DNA of 64,000 bases, taken from contig CM034546.1 of NCBI GenBank assembly GCA_020055645.1, positions 54,560,001 through 54,624,000 of the forward strand. The letters are read 5' to 3'. Under the pieces are notes generated by a model that saw only the letters and a program-made list of their open reading frames with translations, was not told the origin of the DNA and ran no database searches. The translations under genes and the position numbers were made by a program. The stretch comes from Tomocerus qinae. Taxonomy: Eukaryota; Arthropoda; Collembola; Entomobryomorpha; Tomoceridae. This document shows, one piece after another, positions 1,078 through 61,454 of the stretch. Within the stretch, counting starts at the first letter, position 1, and each line of letters opens with the position of its first letter.

Positions 1078-1102
1078 GTGCGAAAACCAACAAATTTTTC
1101 AG
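1078..1102 (+). CDS. candidate 25-nt microexon of the CYLD-like gene
   Basis: The sequence TTTGCAG precedes position 1078 and a donor (GTAATA) follows 1102. The 25 nt encode VRKPTNFS plus one base. This base joins TC at 1178 to make a Val codon, so both phases match. Support is splice-site pattern and phase only. Confidence 0.35.
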
Positions 1103-4100
1103 GTAATAGAAGTAAAAATGCATATCATATTATTAAGAGATTATTTTCGTTTTTTGTTTGTTTTATATCTGTTACAGTCTGGTACGAAAATGCAAAAACT
1201 CTAACAAAGAAGTTTTGCGACACCATACAGACAATTCCTTCCAATGTCCTCCAATTTTTAACAATGGATTTAAATAATGGCATGCACCTCATTTCTGATC
1301 AGAGAAGACTAACCCAGAATCAGTTAGATGTGGCTGAACGTAAGATATTAATTGTGATTTGTAAACTCATGAATCGTAAATACCATATGAGCCGACCTAG
1401 CACACACACTCGTATATGTGTAGTACAATGACGTATGCGTGCTAGGGTGCTTAAGCACTATATTTTACCACATGTTACCATATTTTACCACCCCCTAAAT
1501 ACATAGGGACATAATATTTCTTTAATTCTAGTCTGAGAGAAACATTATATTCCTCCCAGTCTACTACATATATATCTTCTATAGTATAATGGTAGACTTG
1601 GAAAAATTACCGATCTATCTATATTTTTTTGGTGGAAGTGCTGATTTGTGAAGTGCTGACTGCAACGCTTTTGAATACCTCTTTTTCCCATCAACTGCAC
1701 ACGTAATATATGCTTGTTCTTTAAAAGCAAAATGCGCAAGCCCAATTCCTCTAAACCACCGTTATGGGTCGTTTCATATTATAGACATCCTCTTTTTTTA
1801 TAGACATCTTAAAAAAGCTTTGAACCCCGTTAGCGCTACTCTACCATTTGAAAATAAAAGTCCAGGAAAACCGAAAGGGTAACTGTCCTGACTTTTTCTT
1901 CAAACGGAATAATGGAGATAGACTATAATACACTTAAAACATGACACACTTAATATGTGTTCTATTACTTATATTTCCCTCATTCGACACTGCCTTTTGC
2001 ATTCATTTTAAAAGTTTGGCATTCTGAGAAAGTTTTTCTAAATTTACCTTGAAAAAATAGTTCACCCCTATCGTTTTAATTGACCCCTCCGGGGTCAACT
2101 ATTTATTTTTCGCACGAATGACATGGTTGAAACAATGGTTCACCCTGGTCAATTAATTCGGATTTTACGGTATTATAATATCAAAACTATAAACGGTTGC
2201 GTAGGGAGTGGTGATGGAATGGAAACTATTAGCGAAAGGGGACATTTCGTAATGTACGTATTAAATGGCATTTCAAAACTTGATTGAATTGATTGATTGA
2301 TTTAAATTGATTCTGCTATATCGACAAACTTATTTAACATTTTTTAGTAGAGCTGGGATAATTTTTTTACCACCTTCTTGATTCCTTTGGCAGTTGGCAT
2401 ACCTTTTTGTAGAATTATATAACAGTACTGAGTAACTAACTATTTATTCTTTAAAAATATTCCAGCTGGACTTTGTAGGATTTTTTTCAAAAATGGAGTA
2501 TTTCATTTTTCCCTGTATTTGAGCTACGATCTACAGTCATTTTTTTAGGAAATTCTTTTTTAGCAAGAAGTTGGGGCTGCGGTTAAATTTTCCAACCATT
2601 GTAGAAATAAAAGTATATTAATTTAGATATACTTTGTAGATTCACAAAGTTAACATAATAACCTAAGATATATTTTCAAAATTGTTTTTATTACTGTGTT
2701 GGGTGGCCTGCTGAAGTTCTCTTGAGGGCTAGGTTTGCCACTTAGCTGGGTGAGTAATTACATAAAAACGAGATGCATCGAATAAAAATATACGGATTAA
2801 ATGGTTGAGTTTCTTATTATAAGTCTCTGGTGAATTGGGGACCGGGGAACTCACAAAGGAATGATCATCGTTATTGAGCTCGATAGATGCCCCACAACTG
2901 CACTTGATTGTGCATGCACGTTTCCTTCAGTGCAGTGGTGGGGCATCTATCGAGCTCAATAACGATGATTATTCCTTTGTGAGGTCCCCAATCCACCAGA
3001 GACTTATAATAAGAAACTCAAATATTTTTATGGGTACCCGATGCCCTAGGCTGCACCATCAGTGTACATCCGACTTTATGTAATAGTAATAGATATGGTA
3101 ATATGTGTAATTATTTTACACCGATCACCAAAAGTCATAATATTTTGTACGTTAAAGCTAGTATTAAATTTTGAAATATATACTGAATCTTTTCTTATAG
3201 GAATTGGAAAGGGTAAAGGAATCGAAAGTAACAATAATTCTTCGTACATAGATGCAACGCTTTTCACTCTGTTGTCTAATACGCGTGTCAATGACCAGGT
3301 CATTTTAAAGCATTTGTACTCCGGAGATTCACATGCAAAAGATGTATGCCAAATACTACAAACAATTTCAGAGAATCTTCGACTTCCACCCTATTTTTGC
3401 AGCTATAAAATCATAAGTAATATGAGACACGTGATGGGTTCAAAAATCCCAGGAGTTCGAGATGGAATTTTGGGTAAGATAAGATTAGTTTCCCCAAATC
3501 GCCATAGAATGACAACTCTACTCAACAATTTATCCTCTTGGCTAATTTTAAGAGATTTATGTCTGGTTTTCAGTGTATAACCATCCACTGGCTGCTATTA
3601 TAATGGTAGACGCTAAAATGCCCTAGGGGCCTGGGCTTTTCTTTTTTTGCAAGCGCGTATATATAATGGTCCAAAATGGCAAACATTAAAAATTACTTCC
3701 GGAAAAGCAAAATTACTGTAGAACGGCAAGATTAGAGGGCCCTTTCTTGTGATTGGGCGTCCCACCCGCCCCATTCCTTAGATTAAGTTAGATTATGATA
3801 AAAAGGTATGCAGCGTGGGCTGGCAGGGGACCCCGTTCTATCTGTACTTGCTATCGTATGGAATTTAACCTACTATGTATTACTATTTCAGTATAACGTG
3901 GTAAACAATGGATACAATGGAAACAATGAAACGCCATCGCTAATTGGATATTTTGTATTGTGTAGCTAATTGGTTTTAATTGCCTTTCCTCGACGCTCGG
4001 CGAAGCGAAGGCAGTATAGTGAATGTGTTGTAGAGAGCTGCTGCATGCCGGGGACAACCAAACTAGCGAAGTTCCATCTTCAATATACCGAACGCAACTT

Positions 4101-7100
4101 ATAATACACAATCTCACACACAAGTATAAATATATTAATAACATATTAACATATTTGATTAATGTTGACTATGAAAGTCAGCAGAAAAACAAAAGTGATT
4201 AATGATGACTATGAAAATCAGCAGAAAAACAAAATTGCTTAATCTTGACTATGAAAATCAACAGAAAATCAAAATTGATTAATATTGACTATGAAAAGCA
4301 ACAGAAAATCAAAATTTATTAATGTTGACTATGAAAATCAACAAAAAGTCAAAATTTATTAATGTTGACTATGAAAATCAACAGAAAGTCAAAATTTATT
4401 AATGTTGACTATGAAAATCAACAGAAAGTCAAAATTGATTAATGTTGGCTATCATAATGAAAAGCAATTCGAAAAATATAAATTTAACTATCTATTTGCA
4501 TATAAATGCAAAATAGATTTATTGCCGTCCGCTAATAGTTATTTTCCGGTTTTATTTGTTTTATTATAAAATTTTAAATTTGGTAGAAGCGGTGTGAAAT
4601 ATTTTATACTATCCGCTAACAATTTATAGGAAACACAATTGAACTTTTTATTGCCAATTTTTCACTTTGACTATCAAAATGAAGACAAAGTGAGCGCGCG
4701 GTATTTCAGTAACCTATGGAGCGATTTGAACCAAAATCAATAGGGTTCGTTACCAGTCCATAGGCATTGTTTATGCCAAGTTTGGTCAACACCATTTAAA
4801 GCAACGATATCAAAAATCTAGCAACCCTTGTGTGTTGATCGATAGTCCAGGATTCCAAATATTCCATAAAAATCGGACTTATCTTTCGGGAGGAATAAAG
4901 CCAGATGTAACCATTATTTAACATGCATTTAGAAAGGTCCATGTGGTTGTGGTTGCTATGCAGGGGTGAGTGGTGAGCCTTCTTAATATGTTAATATGTT
5001 ATTAATGTATTGGTACTTGTGTGTGAGATTGTGTATTATAAGTTGCGTTCGGTATATTGAAGATGGAACTTCGCTAGTTTGGTTGTCCCCGGCATGCAGC
5101 AGCTCTCTACAACACATTCACTATACTGCCTTCGCTTCGCCGAGCGTCGAGGAAAGGCAATTAAAACCAATTAGCTACACAATACAAAATATCCAATTAG
5201 CGATGGCGTTTCATTGTTTCCATTGTATCCATTGTTTACCACGTTATACTGAAATAGTAATAGCACTACACACTAGTGCAACTGTGGGTAAAGTGCCGTT
5301 TTAGTCATGTAACTGTAAAAAGGCTACGGAATTTCAGGTATGCGCAGGGCCGCCCTAAGGGTCTTTGTCACCCCGGGCAAAATAAAAAAAGCCGCCCTTT
5401 GAGATACATTTTGAAGTCCATTTTATTAATGCCATTATTAAAATAAAAATGTATCAAATAATGATTTGGAAATTAATTATAACCGGTAAAATCAATAAGT
5501 ATATTCAAGCCCTTGGATTATCAATGTAATGCCACTGACAAGCTAGAACGTATACAGAACTGTGATTAGGAGGGGGCTAAGATTTCCAATAGATATTTTA
5601 ATAATATATATTCGCGCTTAGCGCGAAAATTTTCGACATTCTTTGTCGGAAATGAGTCAAAAATGGCCTATAGATGGCAAATAATCCGCGCGAAGAGCGA
5701 AATTTTTTGGTATTTTTAAAAAAATTCCCTTTTCTCGAATTCCGGGGGGGATGGGGGTAAAGACCATCCCTCAATACGTCCTTGCTGACAAGTCCGTATG
5801 GTGTTATGTCGTACTTTTGCTGCCTAAGACCATCACTTGATTTGGATTTGCGATAACTATCAAATTGTGGACAAGGAAGACAAGGATGAGTGGATTGGTA
5901 TATGATGTCAATCTTATTATTTGAGATTTTCCCATCTTCCAAACAGCGTAAATGTAACGGATTCTTAATATTTTGCCGCCCCCAAACATTTGCCGCCCTG
6001 GGCGGCTGCCCTGCTTGCCCATGCCTCGGGGCGGCCCTGGGTATGCGAAATAAATTTATCTCAAGTATCTGGCTGTAAATTAGGCCCAGGGTGAAATCGT
6101 ATCAACTGTGCAGAGATTCATACAGTTGATTTTGAAGAAGTCTAGGATATCAAAATGACTATTTTTAAACGACGAGGCTTTAAAATCCAGGGCTTTTCCA
6201 AAAAACCAGACTGTTTTAGGTGCTATACTTTATGAGAAACAAGGATTTGAAATTCTTCCCAAAATTTCGAAATTTTTTTGAAAATCTTGTTTACAGCTAT
6301 AAAAACGATAACTTTACATTACTAAAAGTAGGACAGGGGTACACGTAATATTATAGAGCACTAAATAACAATAAAAAAACAAAAACTTGCAAATTATTAA
6401 TTTTTTTTGAAAAAAACTGAAAAAGTTTCAAAATTTAATATTTCAAAAACGCACCGGATACCAAGAACCAAACCAATTGCATAAAATTTTAAAAAGGTTG
6501 GAGAATCATGGTGGTTGGTTTTGGTTCTTGGTATCCGGTGCAATTATTGGCAAATGAGGCTTAAAAAAACGACAAATTTCTGTATAATTAGGGACTCCCC
6601 ATTGACGGTGATACGCAATATAAAGAAATATACATATAACATTAGTTCTATGTACTAAATGATAAAAACGTATGGCTTCTAAATTTTTTTTACTACGTAA
6701 TGGAAGCCATTCCCAATGACTTGCAAGCCCTTTCAAATATTTTAAAAACCATTGGAAACCATTTCTAAACCATTGGAAACCATTTCTAAACCATTGGTAA
6801 CCATTTCTAAACCATTGGAAACCATTTCTAAACCATTGGAAACTATTTCTAAACCATTGGAAACCATTTCTAAACCATTGGAAACCATTTCTAATCCATT
6901 GGAAACCATTTCTAAACCATTGGAAACCATTTCTAAACCATTGGAAACCATTTCTAAACCATTAAAAATGGTTTCCAATGGTTTGTAAATGGTTTCCAAT
7001 GGTTTGTAAATGGTTTCCAATGGTTTGTAAATGGTTTCCAATGGTTTGTAAATGGTTTCCAATGGTTTGGAAATGGTTTAGAAATGTTTTCCAATGGTTT

Positions 7101-10100
7101 CCAATGGTTTGGAAATGGTTTCTAATGGTTTGGAAATGGTTTCCAATGGTTTGGAAATGGTTTCCAATGGTTTGGAAATGGTTTCCAATGGTTTGGAAAT
7201 GGTTTCCAATGGTTTGGAAATGGTTTCCAATGGTTTGGAAATGGTTTCCAATGGTTTGGAAATGGTTTCCAATGGTTTGGAAATGGTTTCCAATGGTTTG
7301 GAAATGGTTTCCGATGGTTTGGAAATGGTTTCCAATGGTTTGGAAATGGTTTCCAATGGTTTGGAAATGGTTTCTAATGGTCTGGAAGTGCTTTTCAAAG
7401 GTCTTAAAATACCTATTCCAACGTCAATGCAGAGACCCCAGCTGCAGTTTGCTTGCTGACGGAGGGAATCAAGGAGTTTTGTTTGTGCTTCTTACTCTAA
7501 GTAATGCGTGCACTGCAAGCGCGCATACTATTAAATCTAAAAGGTTAACGCGGTGAGACTAATAGTCGACCGCCAAAATCCTTGGCTCCAAATGCACAGT
7601 TGATACGATTTCGCCCCCCACCCAATGTTCTCCGAAAGTCAATGTAGGGATAATTCCTCATAAGCTAAGTATGCAGACGTCAAAACCATGTCTCTCCCAC
7701 CTGCTTTCACCAACTGCTGCATTAGAATGTATAGTAGGCATTGAGCCTATAGATTTGTTTCTTACCAAAACAGCAACTACAACAGCGCATCGTCTGCGTC
7801 GCACTGGCAAATGGCTGCCTTGGCATGGACGAGGCAGCCTTAAGAGATTAACTCACTAAGCTAGCTACGTGTTCTCAACACTATTTGTTCTTGAAATCTT
7901 AGGAGAAATGTAAAAGTTCTAGGTATGAGTATGGCAAAAAGTTTAAGTATAAGAGATGAGCCTAAGTGAAATGAGAGAAACTTGAGACTGCTACTACAAA
8001 ACCAGGGTTGTGGGTCCGGTTTTAATGAGTTGGGGTTTTTTGCCAAAAACCTACCCCACTTCACTTAAAAAACGCTGGTTTTATTGGGTTTTTTTTTACA
8101 AAGCTTACAATGATGTGCTCTAAAGCTCCATCTAGATAAGCAAAACATACTAATTTTTGTCATATTTCTTTTAAAAAATGTATACAAAGGTATGCAAATA
8201 ATGAGATATAACAAAAACAAACTCAAGTTATAAATAGTTTGTATATAACAAAATATAGCTTTTGCATTTCTACGTGCAATTAATGTATTGTGACATGACG
8301 ACTATGTATTACTTTATTCGTTGTGAATATTACATATTGTAGTACACACAATTATAATAATTAATCACTTATATATTCATGACTGTACTGATTCACAATT
8401 AAAGCTCCATATTGACAAAGGAACAATTTCATAAAATATTTTAATCAGTAACATTATATAATGCATAATTTTTCACTAGTTGTATAAAACTGTATTAATA
8501 TACAAGTATTCACAAAAAATACTGATTGTTTGCTATGTTATAACATGTTAAAATTAAATTTTTATTCCTTAATTTTGGTTTTCACTGACGTAAATAATAG
8601 TAGTTGCAGGATTACACGCTTGCTTTTATTATATATGGTGTGGTAATACTTGCATTTGTGCCTATAGTTACCTATATAAAAAAAACCTTAAGCCCAAAAA
8701 ACCCTAAAAAACTTTGGGTCGACGATTTTTTTCGATACCTTGTACAAAACATGTAAGTTTGTAAAGTTTCATTTACAAAGAAGAGAGGTGTGTAGACAGC
8801 TTAGGGCAAGAGGTAAGTGCTAAGTGAGTATAGGTAGCGCGTTAGTTTTTATAAACTAACATTGACATAAGAATAAGTTCACTTATTTTGGCCCGGGGCG
8901 AATTGCCACATGTCACAAAAATAATAAAAAATTATTAAATACGTAGTTACATTACAAGAGATTAGTGTTTGCAAAGCACCCTGATAGTGGAAAACCCGCC
9001 TACAAGAAATTCGAATTTTTTTGGATTATAAGTTTGATGCTAAGGAAAATTCATATTGTGTTAAATAAAATTTTTATATACATAAGTTACCATTTTAGCT
9101 TATAAAACAATTTTTTAAATTCTTGGATTTAATTTTTTAAATTCTTGGATTTAATTTTTTAAATTCTTGGATTTAATTTTTTAAATTCTTGGATTTAATT
9201 TTTTAAATTCTTGGATTTAATTTTTTAAATTCTTGGATTTAATTTTTTAAATTCTTGGATTTAATTTTTTAAATTCTTGGATTTAATTTTTTAAATTCTT
9301 GGATTTAATTTTTTAAATTCTTGGATTTAATTTTTTAAATTCTTGGATTTAATTTTTTTAATTCTTGGATTTAATTTTTTAAATTCTTGGATTTAATTTT
9401 TTAAATTCTTGGATTTAATTTTTTTAATTCTTGGATTTAATTTTTTAAATTCTTGGATTTAATTTTTTAAATTCTTGGATTTAATTTTTTAAATTCTTGG
9501 ATTTAATTTTTTTAAATTCTTGGATTTAATTTTTAAATTCTTGGATTTAATTTTTAAATTCTTGGATTTAATTTTTTAAATTCTTGGATTTAATTTTTTA
9601 TATTCTTGGATTTAATTTTTTAAATTCTTGGATTTAATTTTTTAAATTCTTGGATTTAATTTTTTAAATTCTTGGATTTAATTTTTTAAATTCTTGGATT
9701 TAATTTTTTAAAATTCTTGGATTTAATTTTTTAAATTCTCGGATTTAATTTTTTAAATTCTTGGATTTAATTTTTTAAATTCTTGGATTTAATTTTTTAA
9801 ATTCTTGGATTTAATTTTTTAAATTCTTGGATTTAATTTTTTAAATTCTTGGATTTAATTTTTTAAATTCTTGGATTTAATTTTTTAAATTCTTGGATTT
9901 AATTTTTTAAATTCTTGGATTTAATTTTTTAAATTCTTGGATTTAATTTTTTAAATTCTTGGATTTAATTTTTTAAATTCTTGGATTTAATTTTTTAAAT
10001 TCTTGGATTTAATTTTTTAAATTCTTGGATTTAATTTTTTAAATTCTTGGATTTAATTTTTTATATTCTTGGATTTAATTTTTTAAATTCTTGGATTTAA

Positions 10101-11542
10101 TTTTTTAAATTCTTGGATTTAATTTTTTAAATTCTTGGATTTAATTTTTTAAATTCTTGGATTTAATTTTTTAAATTCTTGGATTTAATTTTTTAAATTC
10201 TTGGATTTAATTTTTTAAATTCTTGGATTTAATTTTTTAAATTCTTGGATTTAATTTTTAAATTCTTGGATTTAATTTTTTAAATTCTTGGATTTAATTT
10301 TTAAATTCTTGGATTTAATTTTTAAATTCTTGGATTTAATTTTTTAAATTCTTGGATTTAATTTTTTAAATTCTTGGATTTAATTTTTTAAATTTTAGTT
10401 TAATTTTTCAAATTCTTGGATTTAATTTTTTAAATTCTTGGATTTAATTTTTTAAATTCTTGGATTTAATTTTTTAAATTCTTGGATTTAATTTTTTAAA
10501 TTCTTGGATTTAATTTTTTAAATTCTTGGATTTAATTTTTTAAATTCTTGGATTTAATTTTTTAAATTCTTGGATTTAATTGGGTAAAAATGTAAAAATT
10601 TAACCTATACTGGTTTATTGTTTGCAATTTAAAAAGTATAAACGCAGTCAGTTGTTTTAATCTGAGAAACTTTTTCGGGGATCATTAGTGATTCAACATG
10701 TTTTTGTAAAATGTAAAATTTGTAAAATTCTATAGATGTGGACCAATTCGTAACAGCATTATTCGAGATATCAATGCAGGAAGAATGCTTTATAAAATAT
10801 TCGTCTGGCAGGAATGCATTTTTTCATGAAATTCATGTTCCCCAAAAGAATAATGACAGTAAATGGAGCAACACGGAAAGATTATTCATTCAAAGTATGC
10901 AAAATCAAAAACGTTTACTAAAAGCAGTTCCATTTCCACAATTAATAATCAAAATCATTCGTTGTCACAAGCAATCGGAAAATGTGGTTCCTAGTTTGTC
11001 TATAAATTTGAAGCCTGTTTTAGAAGGTAGTTATATAAAAAGTAGATTTCTTCAATGTGAGACATTAGCATTTCTAACTAACGTGTAGTTTCTATTTTTG
11101 TTTTTAGATCAAATACAGGTGGAAATGCAGTTGTTTTCCGTTATTTGTAAGCAGGGAAATGGCAAGTTTGTAAGCTTCGTCAAATACAACGCAGATCAGT
11201 TCGCTGAAGAAAATTTATCTAAATCATGCTGGATTTTTACCAAAATGTCAAATAAGCGCAAAGAAGCCAAGGTAAAGAAAAAATATTTTTGTCAACTTAA
11301 TTTTAGATTTGATTGGATTTTTGATGCAGGTAGTCGGTTGGCCTTCACTTTACTCTCATCTGTCTTCACTGGGCACAAAAGAGCTGAATTTGAAAAATAA
11401 TTCTAACAAAAAGGATGACAAAGATTTCGTGGAATTTTGCTCTCAAGCATGTTATTGCTTTTACAAAAGCAATATTGTGCAATACCAAAAAGAAATGGTA
11501 ATTCATTCTAGCATTCGACATCGACATATTTTATTTGATTGA
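1078..11542 (+). CDS. CYLD-like ubiquitin hydrolase, predicted catalytically dead (multi-exon gene)
   Basis: Proposed exons are 1078-1102, 1178-1339, 3201-3473, 10736-11026, 11108-11271 and 11330-11542, with intron phases 1,1,1,1,0 that all join in frame. The translation follows the USP domain of CYLD, a deubiquitinase for Lys63 and linear chains. It has the Cys-box region GIGKGKGIE..SSYIDATLF, then FVTALFEI, LIIKI, ELFAVLC-like MQLFSVIC, VSFVKY, and a C-terminal Cys/Tyr segment ending near the usual CYLD C-terminus. The nucleophile position is Ser (TCG at 3242), the general-base His is Lys (11164) and the triad Asp is Lys or missing (11242). The zinc-binding B-box insert of CYLD is absent: only an 81-bp intron lies where it should be. 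No frameshift or stop interrupts the exons. I infer a pseudoenzyme rather than a dead gene. CAP-Gly exons were not seen. Confidence 0.75.
1178..1339 (+). CDS. exon upstream of the CYLD-like catalytic region
   Basis: It is preceded by a pyrimidine-rich tract ending in TTACAG and followed by GTAAGAT. It is open in phase 1-1 for 54 codons (WYENAKTLTKKF... to ...LDVAE). The last base C joins GA at 3201 to give Arg, producing RIGKGKGIE, which lines up with the CYLD segment before the Cys box. The peptide itself has no domain that I recognise. Confidence 0.5.
1340..2770. other. AT-rich intron of the CYLD-like gene
   Basis: There are no convincing exons or mobile elements, only poly-A/T runs and short inverted repeats. 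Confidence 0.4.
2772..3050. repeat. long imperfect palindrome (foldback)
   Basis: The arm at about 2806-2898 (GAGTTTCTTATTATAAGTCT... to GAGCTCGATAGATGCCCCA) is repeated as its reverse complement at about 2935-3020, with a spacer of about 35 bp. Weaker pairing (GCATCG, AAAAATAT) extends the stem outward to about 2772 and 3050. The stem lies in an intron of the CYLD-like gene, just upstream of the Cys-box exon. Confidence 0.75.
3201..3473 (+). CDS. CYLD-like exon with the substituted Cys box
   Basis: Acceptor TTTCTTATAG ends at 3200 and donor GTAAGAT starts at 3474. The peptide GKGIE....NSSYIDATLF matches the CYLD Cys box, where NSCYLDSTLF is usual, so the catalytic Cys is Ser (codon TCG, 3242-3244). 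The remaining part, to MGSKIPGVRDGIL, follows the CYLD helical region. One base (G, 3473) is carried into the next exon. Confidence 0.8.
3878..5262. mobile_element. foldback DNA element with ~280-bp terminal inverted repeats
   Basis: The left arm 3878-4157 and right arm 4983-5262 are near-identical reverse complements, beginning TATTACTATTTCAGTATAAC. If the outer TA at each end is the target duplication, the insertion fits TA-targeting elements. The interior (4158-4982) holds copies of a 40-bp unit and the unclassified interspersed repeat seen elsewhere in the window. Two apparent ORFs, one per arm, are mirror images and are not genes. The element sits inside the large CYLD-like intron. Confidence 0.7.
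4150..4800 (+). repeat. interspersed repeat with internal ~40-bp minisatellite, copy 1
   Basis: About seven copies of a ~40-bp unit (ATTAATGTTGACTATGAAAA...) run from 4150 to 4450. A conserved tail follows: ATAAATGCAAAATAGATTTA, CACTTTGACTATCAAAATG, GCGCGGTAT, CAATAGGGTTCG and CCAAGTTTGGTCAAC. The same order occurs near 12.7-13.5, 31.8-32.2 and 54.7-55.5 kb. The family type is unknown. Confidence 0.65.
5345..6039. mobile_element. hAT-type MITE, 695 bp, copy 1
   Basis: The ends are CAGGGCCGCC and GGCGGCCCTG, flanked by a perfect 8-bp duplication GGTATGCG (5337-5344 and 6040-6047). An 8-bp duplication and a CAG-starting inverted repeat are typical of hAT elements. It has no transposase frame. 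A second copy of the same length lies inverted at 36389-37083 and a diverged fragment at about 61455-61643. Confidence 0.9.
6089..7616. mobile_element. TIR element carrying an inverted 21-bp minisatellite
   Basis: The ends GGGTGAAATCGTATCAACTG (6089) and its reverse complement (7593-7616) match with one difference over 24 bp. Inside lie a perfect hairpin (6452-6541, arms GCACCGGATACCAAGAACC) and the inverted 21-bp repeat array. No transposase frame is visible, so this is a non-autonomous element of unknown superfamily. Confidence 0.6.
6746..7390. repeat. 21-bp minisatellite that reverses orientation in the middle
   Basis: About ten units containing CCATTTCTAAACCATTGGAA fill 6746-6963. About twenty units of the reverse complement fill 6965-7390. 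The turning point is CCATTAAAAATGG. As 21 is a multiple of three and the unit lacks stops in several frames, it creates long but meaningless ORFs on both strands. Confidence 0.9.
7617..7860 (+). pseudogene. non-LTR retrotransposon (R1/Jockey-like) fragment
   Basis: The peptide CLSHLLSPTAALECIVGIEP, then IDLFLTK..A...AHRLR, matches the segment between the reverse transcriptase and RNase H of R1/Jockey-type LINEs, where a PTAALE..LG..PLDL motif is common. It ends in a stop at 7857-7859 and has no preceding RT. It is a short relic within the CYLD-like intron. Confidence 0.6.
7861..9104. other. AT-rich intronic stretch, nothing recognised
   Basis: Poly-T and poly-A runs without a convincing exon, repeat or RNA gene. 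Confidence 0.4.
9105..10582 (+). repeat. 22-bp tandem array, about 66 copies
   Basis: The unit AATTTTTTAAATTCTTGGAT plus TT repeats almost without change from 9105 to 10582. It shows only length changes in the T run and a few substitutions (TATATTC, TTCTCGG), plus one degenerate unit near 10392. It lies in the CYLD-like intron, 150 bp before the next exon. Confidence 0.95.
10736..11026 (+). CDS. CYLD-like exon, middle of the USP fold
   Basis: Acceptor ATTCTATAG ends at 10735 and donor GTAGTT starts at 11027. The carried G plus AT gives Asp, so DVDQFVTALFEI reads through and aligns with the DPEEFLNILF region of CYLD. Later KAVPFPQLIIKI aligns with the APSCLIIQMPRF strand, and VVPSLSINLKPVLE with the PSLELxITDLLED strand. 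The exon is intact, with no stops. Confidence 0.75.
11108..11271 (+). CDS. CYLD-like exon with substituted His and Asp boxes
   Basis: It follows an 81-bp intron (acceptor TTTTTAG at 11101-11107) and ends at donor GTAAAG (11272). QVEMQLFSVICKQ aligns with the CYLD strand before the His box. GKFVSFVKY replaces the usual SHYVAFVKY, so Lys (11164-11166) stands for His. CWIFTKM replaces the usual WLFFDSM, so the Asp is lost. These family positions are from memory of CYLD; the residues here are read directly. Confidence 0.75.
11330..11542 (+). CDS. CYLD-like terminal exon
   Basis: A 58-bp intron (11272-11329, acceptor TTGATGCAG) precedes it in phase 0. The peptide runs from VVGWPSLYSHLSSL to a TGA at 11540-11542. 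FCSQACYCFYKSNIVQYQK corresponds to the [20 protein letters not shown] terminus of CYLD, followed by an extra tail of about 20 residues. Confidence 0.7.
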   Translation, partial: VVGWPSLYSHLSSLGTKELNLKNNSNKKDDKDFVEFCSQACYCFYKSNIVQYQKEMVIHSSIRHRHILFD

Positions 11543-12421: not shown

Positions 12422-12689
12422 ATTGTAAGTAGCATTGAGTTTCGGCTTGGACCCTCTCAAATGCCAGTTGCTTTAGATATCCCAATTTTCAAATGCATGA
12501 AGTTTGATATCGATTATGGTCCTCCTTTGCAAAAATAGTTCAATAAAACGGCCTTATTCCGTTTTTAGCTTTTCAACGACTAATGACACCTTACAATTGA
12601 CATTTTTGACAAAAAAACCTCAGCTGTCATCCTCTAGAGAGCAACAATTTTGAAATATTTTTACAACAATCAAGCAAAACTTCATTAGA

Positions 12690-13485
12690 GCTTTATTTTA
12701 AATCGGGCAGAATTATGATTAAGTATTCCCTGTATCAAAACCTACAACAAGCTGTAACAGAAGCTCTCCTGAGTAAAGAGGACCGCGTACAAATTTTTGA
12801 TCAAATACTAGTAGGATAGATCTATTTTGAATATTACAGAAATGACTAGCTACCCAAATTAGATCAACATTGACATAACTCAAACTAAAAATGAACAAAA
12901 ATTAAAAACAAATCAATGTCGACTATCACAATTAATAAAAATTCAAAACAGATTAATGTTGAATATCAAAATCAACAGAAAATCAAAATAGATTAATGCT
13001 GAATCTAAATCCGTTAATATAGAATATCTAAATATAAAGAAATTCAAAAACTTTGACTATAAAATCGAATATAAATGCGAATTGGAATATTTCCTTTATC
13101 TAGAAGTTATTTTCTGGTTTTATCTCCTTCATTATAAAATCTTAAATTTGATAGAAGCTGAGTGAAATATTTTATACTATACAAAAAATATTTATAGGAA
13201 ACGCAATTGGAACTTCAATGCCCATTTAATGCAAAATTTTCACTTTGACTATCAAAATGGAAACAAAATGAGCGAGCGGTATCTGATTAACTTATGGACA
13301 TATTTGAACCAAAATGAATAGGGTTCGTCACTGGTGTATAGGCATTGTTCCCGCCAAGTTTGGTCAACTTTGGTCAGTGTATTCGAAAGTTGTCGTTTAT
13401 ACGAACGGACAGACAGACTGTGCGCTTCAATAGCCTGCATTATTCAGGCGAGCTAAAACTGGTTAGATTTCAAAATGTATGTAGT
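12690..13485 (+). repeat. interspersed repeat family, copy 2
   Basis: It starts with a coding-like head (CAACAAGCTGTAACAGAAGC, 12749 on), passes through degenerate 40-bp units (12880-13000), and ends with the shared tail (GGGTTCGTCACTGGTGTATA, CCAAGTTTGGTCAAC, GAACGGACAGACAGACTGTG). No open frame is retained throughout. Confidence 0.55.
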
Positions 13486-15135: not shown

Positions 15136-15585
15136 ATGGCAAATGATCGCATACAAAAGGAACTCGCTGAGATGAAGCACAATCCACCTGCTTTGTGCTG
15201 TGCTGGTCCGGCAAAAGGCAACATGACGGAATGGAATGCTACTATTGCTGGGCCTCCATTTACTCCCTACCAAGGGGGAATGTTTAAACTAAAAATTAAG
15301 TTTCCAGCAAATTATCCTACAGATCCACCTAAAGTAACTTTTGAAACAAAAGTATATCACATGAATATTGCAGAAGACGGCTACATCTGTTTGGACATTT
15401 TGGATGTCAACAAAAAATGGAATCCAAATATAACGATCGGGAAAATTTTATTGGCCATTTGTGGTCTCCTATCAAAACCAAATACAGATGACCCAAATAA
15501 TTCCGTAAAAGCTGAGTTATATTTGAATGATCGAATTGAGTACAGTAAAGCCGCTCAAGAATGGACTAGACTTTATGCTAAATAA
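15136..15585 (+). CDS. ubiquitin-conjugating enzyme E2, UBE2D-like, diverged (copy 1)
   Basis: A 149-residue E2 core domain, the size of UBE2D/effete. It takes ubiquitin from E1 onto its active Cys and passes it on with an E3. It shows PPALCCAGP, the YQGG and IKFP..YP..PP strands, the active Cys85 in GYICLDIL, and LLAIC with DDP after it. The HPN motif reads HMN (75-77), so the Pro is replaced while His and Asn stay. The RING-contact Phe62 is Thr, and a two-residue insertion precedes KWNPN, whose Ala96 equivalent is Asn. The frame is intact and continuous. An acceptor (ATATTAG) ends 8 bp before the ATG and the frame is open across it, so an upstream exon, coding or UTR, is likely. More than half of the residues match the copy at 38924. 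Confidence 0.93.
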   Translation: MANDRIQKELAEMKHNPPALCCAGPAKGNMTEWNATIAGPPFTPYQGGMFKLKIKFPANYPTDPPKVTFETKVYHMNIAEDGYICLDILDVNKKWNPNITIGKILLAICGLLSKPNTDDPNNSVKAELYLNDRIEYSKAAQEWTRLYAK

Positions 15586-16427
15586 AAAATTAAATAGCTA
15601 TTGTTTTGCTTTTTTTTAAAGTTCATCAGCTAATATTAAGTATATTTTGCAAAGTCATAAGCACATTTCAAACAGTTCTGTCAAAAATTATGCAGGGTAC
15701 TCTTCTACCCTTTTACATTACCTAGGACATAATCGAAACAATCCCGACAAGAGTAGATAAGAAATTGGATATTTGTTACGTTTCATATAAAAACACGACG
15801 AAAAATAATTATTAACAAAGCCATAAAGCAAGAATGAGACGAAATTATAAATGTTACACCGGACATTAAATATAAATATTAAGCTACAGTCGGCAAAAAT
15901 AATAATAAAATCTTGCAGGCAGCTATCCAGAGGGGGCGTTAAGAGGGGGTCGAACCCCCTCCTAAATTACAAGAAAAGGTGATTTTTTTGTCAAAATAGG
16001 TTGAAAATCCATAAATTTTTCATAATTTTTTCAAAACATTTAGGTACCATCTCCTTAGTCACATTCCTAAATACGCGGCTGGAATTAAACTAAACTGACC
16101 AGTGTCAGTCAGAGATCAATAGCCAAGGTTAGATTCTGAATAAAGTTTCAAATTCCTAAAGTTTGTGTTTGGCTGCCTGCCTGATCAGGTTAGAACTGTG
16201 TACCAACCACCTCCAATGTTGACTAAACTAATTAAACTACCGACGTACCACCCCGAAAGATTATAGAAATTTTAGAAAGGTTAAAGTACAACCTCATGTT
16301 TAATTCTTTCAAGGATAAAACAAAGTGTCTCACAAATCAAACGATAAAATTATGTGCTGGGTGTCTCCTCTATTCTTACCTTATTGTAAAAGGTAATGCA
16401 AATGGCAACTCTGGTAAAATTAAATTT
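15586..16427. other. 3' flank of the first E2
   Basis: A polyadenylation signal cannot be fixed. A piece with CTATCCAGAGGGGGCG near 15918 resembles the ends of the CTGGATACG-type MITE at 50749-50920. Otherwise nothing is recognised. Confidence 0.3.
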
Positions 16428-17481
16428 GGGTTAACATTAGGTCAGTATTTACATTTGGGTTAACATTGGGTCAGTATTTACATTTGGGTTAACAGTAGGT
16501 CAGTATTTACATTTGGGTTAACATTAGGTCAGTATTTACATTTGGGTTAACATTGGGTCAGTATTTACATTTGGGTTAACAGTAGGTCAGTATTTACATT
16601 TGGGTTAACATTAGGTCAGTATTTACATTTGGGTTAACATTAGGTCAGTATTTACATTTGGGTTAACATTAGGTCAGTATTTACATTTGGGTTAACATTA
16701 GGTCAGTATTTACATTTGGGTTAACATTAGGTCAGTATTTACATTTGGGTTAACATTAGGTCAGTATTTACATTTGGGTTAACATTAGGTCAGTATTTAC
16801 ATTTGGGTTAACATTAGGTCAGTATTTACATTTGGGTTAACATTAGGTCAGTATTTACATTTGGGTTAACATTAGGTCAGTATTTACATTTGGGTTAACA
16901 TTAGGTCAGTATTTACATTTGGGTTAACATTAGGTCAGTATTTACATTTGGGTTAACATTAGGTCAGTATTTACATTTGGGTTAACATTAGGTCAGTATT
17001 TACATTTGGGTTAACATTAGGTCAGTATTTACATTTGGGTTAACATTAGGTCAGTATTTACATTTGGGTTAACATTAGGTCAGTATTTACATTTGGGTTA
17101 ACATTAGGTCAGTATTTACATTTGGGTTAACATTAGGTCAGTATTTACATTTGGGTTAACATTAGGTCAGTATTTACATTTGGGTTAACATTAGGTCAGT
17201 ATTTACATTTGGGTTAACATTAGGTCAGTATTTACATTTGGGTTAACATTAGGTCAGTATTTACATTTGGGTTAACATTAGGTCAGTATTTACATTTGGG
17301 TTAACATTAGGTCAGTATTTACATTTGGGTTAACATTAGGTCAGTATTTACATTTGGGTTAACATTAGGTCAGTATTTACATTTGGGTTAACATTAGGTC
17401 AGTATTTACATTTGGGTTAACATTAGGTCAGTATTTACATTTGGGTTAACATTAGGTCAGTATTTACATTTGGGTTAACAT
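16428..17481 (+). repeat. 29-bp tandem array, about 36 copies
   Basis: The unit begins GGGTTAACATTAGGTCAGTA and ends TTTACATTT. Early units alternate among ATTAGG, ATTGGG and AGTAGG variants, while units from about 16600 on are identical. It ends in GTTAACATT slippage repeats at 17480-17495. Confidence 0.95.
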
Positions 17482-17499
17482 TGTTAACATTGTTAAGAT

Positions 17500-17959: not shown

Positions 17960-20432
17960 CAATAGAATAATATGATGTGAATCTGATGTATACCGTTGAT
18001 GACTGGGTCTCCCTCTGACACCGAAGCCATCAAAAAGAAGGATGAACTTCTTCGCATCCTAGCTGCTGGAAAGATGGAACTCCGTAAGTGGTCTTCTAAC
18101 TCTAATACTTTGTTGGAGTCTCTGCCTGCACAACTCCGTGAGACCATCTACCCCCTCCGTATTGACGAAGATGAAACAGTCAAGACTATTGGACTAACTT
18201 GGAGTCCAGCAAGTAACATGTTCTCAATCTGGGTTGTCATGCCTCCTTCTAGATAAACCATCACTCGGCGGACCCTCCTGTCCGATGTCGCCAAGACGTT
18301 TGACCCCCTTGGTCTACTTTCTCCGGTTACAATCAAAGCCAAGCTTATCTTGCAATCTCTCTGGAAGGAAAAGCAAGGCTGGGATGAACCCATCCCTCCT
18401 AAGTACAAGCAAGATTGGTTGGAGTATCTACAGGACATTCCCAACTACAACCAGCTGACTATTCCTCGGTGCATTACAACGCCAGGAAGTGATTTTCAAC
18501 TCCACGGGTTTTGCGACGCCTCTCAAGTCGCATATGCAGCCTGCGTCTACCTCCGCTCCATCAACACATCGAATGAAGTGCAGGTTCGTCTAATCTGTTC
18601 TAAGACTAAGGTAGACCCTACCAGCCATGTGTCTGTGGGTCGTTTCGAGCTTTGTGGTGCTGCTCTACTGTCTAAGTTGATGGAGAAAGTGAAAGCATCC
18701 TTGGATTTGACAATAAGTAACGTCACTTATTGGAGTGACTCGACCATAGTACTTGCTTGGACATCCTCTTCCACTCAATGGAACCACGTCCTTGGAGAAG
18801 AGAATCCAGCAGATTGTGCCTCCAGGGGGATCAACCCCTTGACATTAAAGGATCATCTCTTGTGGTGGAATGGACCACAATGGCTCCAGTCCTCAACTCT
18901 CCCTTCAAAGGTCTCTAGCCCAGAAGAATCGCCCGAAGCAGCAATTCTGGAAGAAGAACGGACAATTCTGACGTCACACCACATTAGCTCCACCCCAAGC
19001 CTCCTGGACAAATATTCGACATTGCTGCAACTACAGAGAGTTACAGCTTTACTCTTAAGAATCTTTCTCCTGAAAGTTTTCAAGGCTCCTGGCCCACTTA
19101 CCAATCCTGATCTCAAGGCTGCCTTGGACTTTTGGATCCGGAAGGTGCAGACGCTTTCATTCAAGGAAACACTTACTGCTATCAAAAAAGCCGAGAGTAT
19201 CCCTACTGCGGGAAAGCAACTGAAGTAATTTTTTCCCTTTCTGGACAACTCTGGAATTTTTAGAGTCGGAGGACGTCTTCAAAACTCACCCCGGATCGGA
19301 AGTATCCAATCCTCCTCCCAAAGAAAAGTCACCTTACTTTTCTCATCGTGGACCACTACCACAAATCTCTTTGCCATGCAGAGAATCAGCTACTCTTGGT
19401 TTCTCCCCAATCTTAATATTGGAATTTAGGAGCATGGGACATCATCCGCCATTTGATCCGCAAATGCATCCCATGCCATCGTGTTCGTGCGGACACTGTC
19501 CAGCAGATGATGAGTAACTTACCTGCCCCCGAGTGAATCAAACTCGGCGGTTCTAGATTTGTGGTGTGGATTTTTCAAGTACTTTTGAAGAGAGGAAGAG
19601 GACAGAAGTCTCAAAAGTTTTACGTCACTGTCTTCATTTGTTTTGTCGTACGAGCCATCCATTTGGAGCTTGTCAGTGACCTGACAAGTGAAGCATTCCT
19701 GGCTGCCTTCCGAAGATTTGTCTCCCGTCGTGGCATTTGCACTGACGTCTACTCAGATTGCGGAACAAATTTTGTCGGAGCCTGTGCACAATTGAAGACC
19801 TACCTGAAAAATATTAAATCCTCCACCCTTGGCACTCATCTGATGGAGTCTCTAGCCAAAGATGGAATCACTTGTCATTTCAACCCTCCCTCTGTCCCCC
19901 ATTTAGGAGGTCTTAGGGAGGCAGGGGTCAAGTCTTTCAAGTATCATCTCAAAAGAATCGTCGGAGGACACACACTCACCATGGAGGAAATGACGACTGT
20001 CCTCACTCAAATTGAAGCTTGCCTCAACTCAAGACCTCTCACAGCCCTGTCAGCCGATCCCAATGATCTGACAGCTCTAACTCCTGGACATTTTCTGGTT
20101 GGAGACGCTCTCATGGCCATCCCAGAACCGGATGTCACGAATCTGAAGACGAACACTCTCAGTCGCTGGTAACTCATTTAGCAGCTCTACCAACACTTTT
20201 GGATCCGATGGAGCTCGGAATACCTCTCGCGTCTGCAGCAGCGGCCGAAGTGGTGGTCCAAAAACATAAATCTGGAAGTCGGAGATCTTGTGCTTTTGAA
20301 GGACGAACGACTCCCCTCCTTGAAATGGAAGTTGGGCCGAGTCCAAGACATTTATCCCGGAAAGGACAACCTTGTACGTGCAGTGCAGATGAAAGCAGCG
20401 GATGGCATTTACTCTCGTCCCATCGACAAGTG
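17960..20432 (+). pseudogene. BEL/Pao retrotransposon pol, broken
   Basis: The segment begins at a damaged YxDD region of reverse transcriptase (about 17975). It continues with the Pao-type RT tail (ELRKWSSN, TVKTIGLTW), the RNase H region (LHGFCDASQVAYAACVYLR, FELCGAALLSKL, YWSDSTIVLAW, NPADCASRG), a degraded zinc segment, and the integrase (FVVRAIHLELV, SDCGTNFVGA, LGGLREAGVK, CLNSRPLTAL), ending VYSRPIDK just before 20432. Frameshifts and stops occur near 18255, 19228, 19540 and 20172. Gag, protease and most of RT are missing. It cannot make a whole polyprotein. Confidence 0.88.
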
Positions 20433-38923: not shown

Positions 38924-39370
38924 ATGATGGCCGAGCAAAGGATCTTAAAAGAATTTGAAGAAATGAAACGAAAACCCCCCGCACTGTGTTCCGCTGGGCC
39001 TGTTGGAGGAAGCATGACAGATTGGCGGGCATCCATTATTGGTCCTCCAATGAGTCCATATCAAGGAGGATTATTTAAGCTGACAATCAAGTTCCCAAAA
39101 GACTATCCTGATAAACCTCCTCAAGTAAAATTCACCACAAAAGTCTACCATCTAAATATTAACAATGAGGGTTACATTTGCTTGGACATCTTGAAAAGCA
39201 AATGGAATCCCAATATTAGCGTTGGAAAAATTTTGCTTGCCATTTGTGCTCTTTTGACCAATCCTAATCCCGACGATCCTCTAGACAGAGAAAAGTGTGG
39301 TGTATACCTGACTAACAGAATCCAATACAGTCAAATGGCTCAAAAATGGACTGTAGATTACGCAAAATAA
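38924..39370 (+). CDS. ubiquitin-conjugating enzyme E2, UBE2D-like, diverged (copy 2)
   Basis: 148 residues. The second Met (38927) matches the usual UBE2D start. It shows PPALCSAGP, the YQGG, IKFP and GYICLDIL segments with active Cys85, KWNPN, LLAICALL and NPDDP. The HPN motif is HLN, and the RING-contact Phe62 is Asp, with Asn for Ala96. As in the first copy, an acceptor (TTCTTATTAG) ends 5 bp before the ATG with the frame open across it, so an upstream exon is expected. A polyadenylation signal AATAAA lies at 39429-39434, about 60 bp past the stop. It lies 2.15 kb upstream of the ubiquitin-like gene on the same strand. Confidence 0.93.
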   Translation: MMAEQRILKEFEEMKRKPPALCSAGPVGGSMTDWRASIIGPPMSPYQGGLFKLTIKFPKDYPDKPPQVKFTTKVYHLNINNEGYICLDILKSKWNPNISVGKILLAICALLTNPNPDDPLDREKCGVYLTNRIQYSQMAQKWTVDYAK

Positions 39371-46385: not shown

Positions 46386-49300
46386 TAATTGTTTTTGAAG
46401 AGTCATCAAGTTCGGATGAATCTCAGTTTAAAGGTTTTTGGTGATAATGCTGAGGTCTTTGAAGACAATGGCGCATCGATTTCTGCCATAAGTTCTAAAT
46501 TTTACGATGAAATTGTAAGTAAAGCCAAGGTGGGCGATAATTTTATACACAAATCGACTGAAATTCGACCTTTTTTGATTAAGCTTTCTATTGAAGACAC
46601 TAATTTGAAGTATTATATTCATAGAGAAGTTGAAATGTTGATAAGATCAATAGTAAGAGAAAATTATGGCGTTTCTTTGTGGTAAATGGCTTGGCAAATA
46701 AGATAGTTTTGGGGATTGATTAGCCAACAGCATACGGGGTCGATCTGAATTATAAAAATACAAAGAATGTTTGTGCAATTGGTGAACATAGCATAAAAGA
46801 GTCCAAGATGTATCCTGAAAGTAAAACTGCAACAGACTTTAACGACAACGAGCTCGGTGTCGAGGTGGGTACACAAACAAGTACCGATTGGGAAAGTAAA
46901 TTGGTTGGGAACCTGGTTATACCACGGCCAGCTCCTATACCCTTGGATTCCTAATAAGAAACACTAATATTAACACTGGAGGAACCGGTGTAGGTGAAGT
47001 GAACTTCCCAGGATCTAATGGTGACTTTGTTTTAAAAACTCACCTAGTCGAACATCATATCGATATACAAGACGCATTGCCAGTAAAACAGCGTCCATAC
47101 TGGTACTCATACAGGTAACGGGTAGAAATAACAAATCAAGTTAATGAATTGTTAGCCAGTGGTGCAATTAGTCCATCAGATTCACCATGGTCGTCGCCTG
47201 TTGTACTTGTAAAGAAACCAGACGGTACCACACGATTTTGTATCGACTATAGAGCTGTAAATGGGTAAGAAGTCGGGATATGCATTACCGAGAATAGACG
47301 ATGCTTTGGATCGTTTTGCATATAGCAAGTACATGAGCACTATGGATTGTGCAAATGCATATTATCAAGTACCAATAGCTGATGATAGCAAAGATAAAAC
47401 AGCTTTTGTGTGTGCTGACAGAATGTTTTACAGTTTTAGGAGATCTAAAGTGGACAATAGCGTTGGTATACTTAGATGATATAATTTGTTACAGTAAGTC
47501 ATTTAGAGCATTTGGAAGTCATTTTTCAATGTCTTATTAATGAAAGGTTAACACTGAAATCGGCTAAATGTATTTTCGAAGACAACAAAATTAAATATCT
47601 GGGGCATATTATTTCTAAAGAGGGAATTTCAGCAGATCCAAAAAAGCGTCAAGCAGTAAACCAGTATAAAAGACCAGCTAATATTCGAGACATTCTTTCT
47701 TTTATAAATTTTTGTGGCTACTATAGACGATTCATCAAGAACTTTTCGCAAATAGCTCGACCACTATGTTGACTAGTAAAAATGTACCTGTTGTGTAGGG
47801 TGAAGAACAGGAAAAGGCTTTTAACGATCTTAAAGCGGCATTAATTTTACCACCGATCATGGCTCATCCACGAGATGATGCTCCGACACGAATTTGTACT
47901 GATGCGAGTTACATTGGGTTAGGTGGGACTTTAGAGCAAGATGCAACGAATCATATTGTAGAGCAACAAGACAAAAACGGAGTTTGGAGAGTGGTAGCTT
48001 ACATTTCACGTGAATTGAAAGCACATGAGAAGAAGTATAGCGTTACTGAAATCGAGTGTCTTTGGATATTATATGCGGTAGAGGCTTTTATACCATACAT
48101 AGCTGACAAACGGTTTACGATTGTAACGGATCATTGCTCTTTATGTCACTTATTAAAAATCAAGGATCCACAAGGGAGACTTGCAAGATGGGCATTAAGA
48201 CTGCAGCCATATATCTTTGACATACAGTTTGTGTCGGAAAAAAGTCACGGACATATGGAAGCATTGGCACGTAATCCACTAGCTTTAATGAAATTACTTC
48301 AGTTTCAGATCCTTTAGATTTTGGTTGTAGATTATGTGCATTAGAAACGACAGATTGGATACAGCAACAGAGAAATTATCCTAAATTGACTGAAATTATA
48401 GCAGAGTTGTTATTCGCTAGATCTAATGACGATCATTAAATTAATGAGTTATATAGTGAGTATGCATTAATTGACGATATATTATATATAGAGGGAATGA
48501 CCCCAGACGAAAACATGTGGAAATTAGTAGTACCTAAAGGTTTACGTAAGGAAGTATTAACAGAGGTTCATGAAAATGCGATGCATTTGGAATTTTTCAA
48601 GACTTGGAGTCTTCTTCGTTCTAGGTATCATTGGAAAGACATGCACCGACACACTAGAAAATTTGTTTTCGGTTGTCAGCAATATAGGAGGGTGGGGGCC
48701 ACTCCAGGTCCAGCTCAACCTGTTCCACCACCAGACTTTCCATATGACAGAATTGGAATTGACTCGATAGGGCCATTTCCAGCAACGCCATATCCTAGGC
48801 GAAACACTTATGCATTAGTTATCATAGACTTATTGACAAGAATTGTAGACATTTTTCCGGTAAAGGGAACTGACAAAATATATCGTAAAAGTACTGACTG
48901 AAAATCTAATGTATTCGTCTCACCATTCATGTCCTAGGAAAATTCTGACTGACAGAGGAACCAATTTCATGTCAAAAGATTTCAAAATGTTTTGTGAACA
49001 GTTTCACATTAAATTATTGCATACGTCGCCATATAATCCTCAAGTGAATGGTGTAGTTGAGAGATCTATTGCAGTCATTAAAAATATAATAGCTACACAT
49101 GTTAATGGATAGGTGAACAACTGGGACAAATATTTAAATCGAATAGCTTACGCCTTGAATAATACTAAACATGCAATTACTCATTATTCTCCATTTTTCT
49201 ACTAAATGGTAGGGAACCACGATTACCATGTGATGCGTTCACACCTACTATTAACGAAAGAGCTGGTGATGTTGAGCCTAATTATATCAAGACTAGGGCT

Positions 49301-55790: not shown

Positions 55791-55983
55791 TGCATATGAT
55801 AGAATTATAACGTAATCACTCATTATGACGCGCTACATTTTTTATGTAGCAGTTCTGCATGGCAGCTGAAAAAGTAGGCAGCGGTCGATTAGAATTAAAA
55901 CCTAGTCTAGGGCATGTATAATGACCAGGGGCCGGACATTCATTTATTTATTTTTCTGAAATATGTACATATATATTTACTAA

Positions 55984-57307
55984 GGAAATGTTTTGATAGA
56001 ATTTCTCGAAAAACTTTATTACATAAACTGTCATGGTATAATATATCTGAAAAATGGTTTAAATCTTATTTGGAAAGTCGTAAGCAATATGTCTACATTA
56101 AAGAAAATAATGTCTCCGAAGTAAAGTATACTACCCTAGGTACTCCACAGGGAGGTGTGATCTCTTGTTTATTATTCACTCTATTAAATTATGATCTTCC
56201 ACTTTGTATAAAAAATAGTCTAATGATATTATTTGCGGATGATACCGGGCTAACTATATCAGGACCGCCTGAGTATATAAGTATAATACTAAGTAAGCTG
56301 CAGAGTGATCTAGAAGCGGTAAATAATTGGATGTCGAACAATAGTATGGAATTAAACATCGATAAGACGTTAATGATGGTACTAGGAAAGCCAAATACAT
56401 TAAAAAGCATTGGTGATTTCTCTTTACTATTTAATAATGTAATAATAAAACCAGTAAAGAAATTGAAACTATTAGGATTAACTATAGATGAAGGTTTGAC
56501 ATGGGAAGATCATATAAATGAAATTGTAAATAAAAGTGGTAGGACACTATGGTCTTTAAATTATGTTCAGACATTGCTAAGTGAGAAAAATAGAATATTA
56601 TTAATTAACTCTTATATAATGCCAAATATAAATGATATGTCCATTATATGGGGGAATGCAAATAAAACTTGTCTAAATAAAATATATGGTATTATGAGAC
56701 GGGCAGCAAGATATATTTTTGCTAAAGGTAAATACGAGAGTGTAACAGAAGATATTTTATGTAAATTAAACTGGCTGACACCAAAATATCTTATCAGATA
56801 TGAAATTCTTTTAATGACGTACACCATTGTAAATAATACTAGTCCTGATTATTTTAAAGATTATGTTAACTACAGTAGTAACAATGTAAACACCATATCT
56901 ACCAGAACTAGAACTTATAACTATCATGTCATGAATTTCAATGCACCGAGTTTTAAGCAAAAATCTTTTTCGTATGCTAGCATGACTGAATGGATTGCGT
57001 TGCCTGAAGAGATTAAAAAGATTAATAGCCAAAATAACTTTAAGAAAAATTTAAAATCGTATTTACTAAACCTACAATCAAAAGAATTTACTATAAACAG
57101 TAATAGTATATACTATGACTTACAGGTAGAAAGTGATGACTCTGAATGATAAGTTTGCATGCATAATTATTTGTGAAACACTAAATTGATAAGTCCGTTT
57201 ACTAAGTAATTGTAAATCAAGTAACTACTAATTGGCAGTCTAATTACCTATGTACATATGGAAACTGACAATAAATACAATACAATACAATACTAAAAAA
57301 GCCCAAA
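55984..57307 (+). pseudogene. 5'-truncated non-LTR retrotransposon (CR1/Jockey-like RT)
   Basis: A long open frame to 57149 starts inside the RT domain at the motif-A region (KCFDRISRKTLLHKL). It carries TLGTPQGGVISCLLF and LMILFADDTGLTISG (catalytic Asp pair), the thumb region KLLGLTIDEGLTWEDHI, and a C-terminal part ending at TGA (57147-57149). It ends with an ATACA-type tail (57268-57290). ATATTTACTAA occurs at 55973-55983 and 57308-57318, a likely 11-bp target duplication. No stop interrupts the frame, so the insertion is fairly young, but endonuclease and ORF1 are missing. The first residues of the open frame (from 55914) belong to flanking DNA. Confidence 0.85.
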
Positions 57308-61281: not shown

Positions 61282-61454
61282 TATTTGGGATCTTCAAAAA
61301 GACAGTGTATTTATTTTCAGCGAATGTACCGGATCGTTTTTCTTATCCTATTGTATTTTAAAATTCTATTATACGGGCTCAGAAGGATAAGGGCATTAGC
61401 AAACAAGTATACAGAACTGAATTTCAAGGGTCTTAAATTCCAAAACATATTTCA

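Follow-up and report, generated by a model that had tools for sequence, protein, structure and literature searches.

The window (C1:54,560,001-54,624,000, the whole stretch of 64,000 nucleotides analysed, from a 334.4-Mb genome of 115 contigs) carries a gene, here called W, that encodes a USP domain homologous to that of CYLD in which all three catalytic residues have been replaced. Serine stands in the place of the cysteine, and lysine in the places of both the histidine and the aspartate, within an otherwise intact gene structure. The best-supported reading of the sequence is that W encodes a retained, non-catalytic CYLD paralogue, that is, a putative pseudo-deubiquitinase, and this is held with slightly more belief than doubt. 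Its expression, its folding and its binding of ubiquitin or of a partner are what we infer. In the usual view CYLD is one gene, with roles in tumour suppression and immunity. Here, a normal CYLD, about 15 further loci and the triad-less W together form a natural test of the cutting and the binding functions of CYLD, and the interest of the CYLD-like family is greater than that of W alone.

Gene structure and CYLD identity

The four USP exons of W join at GT-AG borders in phases 1, 1 and 0 (Table 1) and encode, once spliced, a domain of 312 residues with no internal stop, closed by a TGA at 11540-11542. In phmmer searches against PDB sequences the protein matched the zebrafish CYLD USP domain (3wxe and 3wxf, E 2.4e-15; 3wxg, E 6.2e-15) and human CYLD (2vhf, E 9.8e-13), and it groups with the CYLD-like expansion described below. 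The serine and the first lysine fall in the Cys and His columns of the PDB CYLD matches, and the second lysine in the Asp column of the family alignments; cysteine occupies the serine position in all seven other aligned sequences from the same genome. The original prediction of a CYLD-like protein with open, in-phase exons and a fully replaced triad was thus borne out on each of these points. In place of the Cys-His-Asp triad of CYLD, W has Ser, Lys and Lys, the kind of loss by which a pseudo-deubiquitinase is recognized. It also lacks the B-box, since exon 2 joins exon 3 directly, and a crude pattern scan for CAP-Gly domains over the window and the 60 kb before it (124 kb in all) gave two matches, neither of them CAP-Gly-like by eye. 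The Leu codon at 3305 corresponds to what we take, by counting along the human sequence, to be Leu622 of human CYLD.

Table 1. Features of W and of its candidate upstream exons (window positions).
Feature	Position	Strand	Remarks
Candidate mini-exon, VRKPTNFS	1078..1102	+	Phase 0 in, phase 1 out; predicted
Candidate exon 5' of the USP domain, VWYENAK...DVAER	1178..1339	+	GT-AG, open frame, phase 1 in and out
USP exon 1, Cys-box half, motif NNSSYIDATLF	3201..3473	+	
Ser codon TCG, catalytic Cys position	3242..3244	+	Read directly and by alignment
Leu codon, counted human CYLD Leu622 position	3305..3307	+	Leu in 8 of 9 sequences including W; Phe in L037
Intron	3474..10735	+	7,262 bp, repeat copies and tandem arrays
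USP exon 2	10736..11026	+	
USP exon 3, His/Asp half	11108..11271	+	81-bp intron to exon 2; B-box absent
Lys codon AAG, catalytic His position	11164..11166	+	Read directly and by alignment
Lys codon AAA, catalytic Asp position	11242..11244	+	Read directly and by family alignments
USP exon 4, C-terminal part and stop	11330..11542	+	

A Pfam scan of the spliced W protein found no family at E<=1, and plain domain scanning would therefore overlook this gene. With the Pfam UCH model (cut-off 23.9 bits), zebrafish CYLD scored 45 bits, the paralogue B 31 and the paralogue U, below the cut-off, 18; W gave no match at E<=1. Identity to zebrafish CYLD is of the same order in the three proteins (W, 31.7% of 218 positions; U, 32.4% of 222; B, 29.2% of 274). 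Protein homologue searches among 374, 1,036 and, with an alignment, 2,037 candidates returned none at E<=0.001. A search of the window at the Rfam gathering thresholds and a tRNA search found nothing, and PHROGs gave no match for two window open reading frames.

The introns of W lie at the positions and in the phases of those of U and B (own reading), and W is therefore no processed copy; a processed-pseudogene origin was rejected on this ground. The longest intron had been described as about 7.3 kb filled with transposons, which is right in part: 3,885 of its 7,262 bp match elsewhere (matches of at least 80 bp, 356 kb of sequence compared), a figure that also includes looser matches between similar tandem repeats. 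Two segments (3878-5262 and 5345-6040) are 99.7% identical to other copies nearby, and an array of 67 copies of a 22-bp unit with 98% matches fills 9109-10581. Splice sites were ranked with a hand-made score among all GT or AG sites in the window; two acceptors proved weak by this measure, those at 10736 (top 26% of AG sites) and 11330 (top 16%). The codon usage of the four USP exons is weakly coding-like, with 7-24% of non-coding frames scoring equally high. Exon 4 contains an internal phase-0 donor-like site (ATG followed by GTAATT, at ~11498), and a longer W protein is possible from the sequence.

Upstream of the USP exons, the two candidate exons of Table 1 can be spliced to them in frame. 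The frame of the mini-exon is open, and by the same score its donor ranks within the best 2% of the window's GT sites and its acceptor within the best 9% of its AG sites; the larger exon contains an in-frame ATG at 1264. Pfam-A gave no match at E<=1 for the two joined. A TMEM175 match in the longer open frame at 1051-1431 (E 0.0051, 17.7 bits against a cut-off of 25) was taken as chance.

A CYLD-like family in the same genome

A whole-genome search with the W protein gave at least 35 exon matches at E<=10, four of them W itself, and at E<=0.01 it reached 16 other loci (own grouping), canonical CYLD included. The family is both dispersed and tandem, with loci at C1:54.27-54.57 Mb, C2:33.366-33.369 Mb, C4:8.90-9.06 Mb, C5:5.909 and 22.964 Mb, and C1:97.45 and 53.43 Mb; weaker matches lie at C1:54.22, 54.40 and 48.18 Mb and at C4:8.915 and 9.070 Mb. 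Two of the 16 loci are on the small contigs C21 and C109, have scores equal to that of C1:53434225 and may be duplicate assembly. The best explanation of the sequences is that W belongs, as one paralogue, to a family that would have grown from CYLD in this lineage, and the single-gene frame in which the gene was originally described proved too small.

DNA was read at 10 of the 16 loci: four near W, namely U, A, B and C, and the six loci L035 to L040. The Cys position holds cysteine in all nine loci with exon 1 (U, A, B, C, L035, L036, L037, L038 and L039; for L040 the DNA read contains exon 2 only), and the His position holds histidine in the seven loci where it was read (U, B, C, L035, L036, L037 and L039). 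Of W and the 10 other loci read, only W shows loss of Cys or His. The Asp position is more variable: five of seven loci have aspartate, while B and C have asparagine with Cys and His retained. These two (L020/L021 and L021/L022) are near-identical units ~9.6 kb apart.

Canonical CYLD (L035+L041, at C5:22.964 Mb) has an intact triad and the Cys-rich stretch of the B-box, and L039 also has a B-box-like Cys-rich stretch. In U, B and L036 the B-box is absent between exons 2 and 3, as in W, with Cys and His kept. The triad of U (C1:54547.5-54554.4 kb) is intact; U is on the strand of W, upstream of it, with its USP exon 1 ~15.7 kb before that of W. Copy A is a lone exon 1 followed by repeats. Two further family matches (C4:8899147 and C1:54398757) contain an in-frame TAA, which may or may not be intronic, so that only A is clearly broken.

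Neighbourhood of W

Two diverged ubiquitin-conjugating enzyme genes of the UBE2D type share the stretch with the CYLD-like genes. Both are single open frames on the + strand (15136-15585 and 38924-39370), with Pfam UQ_con scores of 153 and 154 bits, respectively, and the product of the first matches UBE2D1 structures at ~E 5e-47. On the opposite strand, an open frame at 60505-61293 scores 128 bits with Pfam Pkinase and encodes a protein kinase domain, for which the best PDB matches are assorted kinases; it has HGD and DIG motifs where kinases usually carry HRD and DFG. A short open frame at 12610-12819 (+) has a below-cut-off match, perhaps by chance, to UCH_N, a USP37-associated domain (E 0.0047, 17.2 against 25 bits).

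Between U and W, from ~5200-9900 of L009 to ~870 of the window, lie mobile-element remnants with inverted ends (by eye), including a frame that weakly resembles DNA polymerase B (PF03175, 18.6 bits against a cut-off of 25.8, E 0.00097). A satellite array at 16420-17482 (29-bp unit, 37 copies, 99% matches) is very regular, as is the array in the W intron. Retroelement frames occur at 18257-19225 (Pao peptidase A17), 47799-48314 (RNase H-like domain of reverse transcriptase) and 55911-57146 (reverse transcriptase).

Conservation and rates of change

In an LG+G4 tree of nine sequences, W joined the expansion members in a clade that excludes canonical and zebrafish CYLD (ultrafast bootstrap 93). 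Support within that clade is low (47-70), which leaves the nearest sister of W unsettled. The W branch is the longest (1.64), the six other expansion members having branches of 0.43-0.90.

Family-invariant columns were taken as those with at least six letters among the relatives, the serine of the zebrafish construct at the Cys column being set aside. W retains 20 of 27 such columns. The lost ones are C14, L104, M164, P165, A198, H207 and S234, a list that includes the catalytic C14 and H207 and, in S234, the neighbour of the Asp position. When each sequence was left out in turn, W kept the lowest share (20 of 26, 77%), the eight others keeping 83-100%. A first comparison, of four sequences, is superseded by the one of nine; there, 28 of 46 columns were retained in W, against 70-82% in the others. 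In Tajima tests with canonical CYLD as outgroup, W evolved faster than L038 (p 0.001) and L039 (p 0.004) and did not differ from U, B, L036 and L037 (p 0.29-0.91); with the zebrafish outgroup, in an analysis of fewer or shorter sequences, its rate also exceeded those of L036 and L039 (p 0.03 for each). A uniformly fast W was rejected, as the tests with the canonical outgroup are significant against only two of the six paralogues.

Retained protein or decaying gene

The change from Cys, His and Asp codons to those observed takes at least six base changes, or five if the ancestor had asparagine at the third position, as B and C do. Under a neutral model (HKY-type, with the base composition of the window), the probability that all three triad residues are lost with no stop in 312 codons reaches its maximum, ~1e-4, when there are about 0.05 substitutions per site, and at 0.5 it has fallen to 2e-8. 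This model is a guide and no proof, because it starts from today's codons and assumes neutrality from the first loss; it leaves aside indels and splice sites, both of which would lower the probability further. Within these assumptions it argues that the W frame outlived catalysis for some time under constraint, and positive selection for the loss of the triad would fit the result as well; very recent death might also be compatible with it.

The selection on a non-catalytic protein suggested by the original prediction is supported in part: the intact frame and phases, the 20 of 27 invariant columns and the improbability of neutral drift in the simple model speak for it, while the longest branch leaves room for relaxed constraint or very recent death. 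The low share of invariant columns is likewise what relaxed constraint would give, and the two weak acceptors and the weakly coding-like exons also count against a retained pseudo-enzyme. The chief rival, which we consider unlikely, is that W is a pseudogene of recent origin: a duplicate whose death lies too close in time for stops to have appeared, and whose triad was lost in relaxed evolution or by chance. It would account for the branch length, the weak acceptors and the young insertions in the intron, and the family has at least one broken copy in A, besides the two TAA-bearing matches that are possibly intronic. Drift long enough for that number of base changes, however, should leave stops, and the Tajima tests show no excess over U, B, L036 and L037, a result tempered by the higher rate of W relative to L038 and L039. 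An error of assembly or base calling is scarcely credible as the source of the triad changes, which are several separate base changes across three codons within an intact surrounding frame. Catalysis through displaced residues is very improbable: USP52 and USP39 are reported or argued, in the excerpt of a review (PMC10919355), to be active without full triads, but W has lysine at both the His and the Asp positions and has also lost the serine after the latter.

Another arrangement overlaps with the retained pseudo-enzyme. The intact USP of U and the dead USP of W might be spliced into one protein, in which W would regulate U or recruit for it, a tentative proposal. A single-chain CYLD-like protein of this kind, with an intact USP followed by a dead one that regulates or holds chains, within a lineage-specific CYLD expansion, is doubtful on present sequences. 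An analogy is found in the JAKs, where a pseudokinase domain regulates the kinase domain. The C-terminal exon of U (L009:3964-4389) resembles that of B, with 15 identities in 46 positions (E 9e-6, in one hand-picked comparison), and that of canonical CYLD (11 of 47, E 2e-4). It continues into a long linker rich in Ser, Thr and Pro, which is closed by a phase-0 donor; the mini-exon of the window has a phase-0 acceptor, and the joined frame is open. With these flanking phases in agreement, one protein with two USP domains is possible, and in six frames between U and W the family HMM reported no other USP-like exon. That HMM, on the other hand, missed the C-terminal exon of U, which was first placed by eye. 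Chance alone would make the phases agree in one case out of three, the two genes are separated by 6.7 kb that include the weak DNA-polymerase-B match, W has its own ATG at 1264, and B ends shortly after a single USP (own reading). The donor of U exon 2 is also a poor GT site by eye, and U itself may therefore be impaired.

Possible mode of action

The USP domain of the putative pseudo-deubiquitinase retains most family-invariant residues, and with Cys, His and Asp lost it would not be expected to cut ubiquitin chains by the usual mechanism. Most likely, as a dead USP lacking the B-box and probably monomeric, it would act by occupation. It might hold Lys63- or Met1-linked ubiquitin chains uncut, or it might compete with active CYLD-like paralogues for a common partner. 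Structural reasoning counts against the holding of chains, as the two lysines added to the cleft could disfavour the arginine-bearing tail of ubiquitin.

When human CYLD is deprived of the B-box, it is monomeric, with structure and activity preserved, but it loses SPATA2 binding, for which Leu622 is also required (PMC5031558). In W the B-box is absent, with leucine kept at the counted 622 position, and a SPATA2 decoy is therefore less likely than the holding of chains or competition for another partner. Excerpts of a review (PMC10919355) describe pseudo-deubiquitinases as already known and an inactive CYLD as able to serve as an adapter, having rescued an adapter function in mouse cells. Taken with the facts on the B-box and SPATA2, this precedent would favour a binding-only role for W.

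Comparison with known systems

As background from insects, CYLD is reported as missing in grape phylloxera along with other IMD-pathway genes (PMC7376646), whereas Rhodnius has a CYLD in which a peptidase C19 domain is accompanied by two CAP-Gly domains (PMC6447187). Among the titles and abstract openings listed in the literature searches, none showed a CYLD-family pseudo-enzyme or a multi-copy invertebrate CYLD family. The pseudo-deubiquitinases USP39 and USP52, as presented in the review excerpt (PMC10919355), have, like W, a USP domain without the standard catalytic residues; they belong to other USP subfamilies, whereas W is of the CYLD subfamily and part of a multi-copy expansion.

W matches most of the CYLD USP domain and has leucine at the counted 622 position; it differs in its Ser, Lys and Lys, in the absence of the B-box and in having no convincing CAP-Gly domain in the crude 60-kb upstream scan. 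The canonical CYLD of the same genome has a homologous USP domain, with an FVSFVK after the His position identical to that of W, but it possesses both the B-box cysteines and the intact triad that W lacks. The zebrafish structures 3wxe and 3wxf share with W a serine at the Cys position and the absence of the B-box in the matched sequence, so that W resembles these laboratory constructs. Unlike W, they and 3wxg, which has alanine at the Cys position, keep His and Asp. All three are presumably engineered trap mutants. If W is expressed, it would be a natural counterpart to the laboratory Cys-to-Ser trap mutants.
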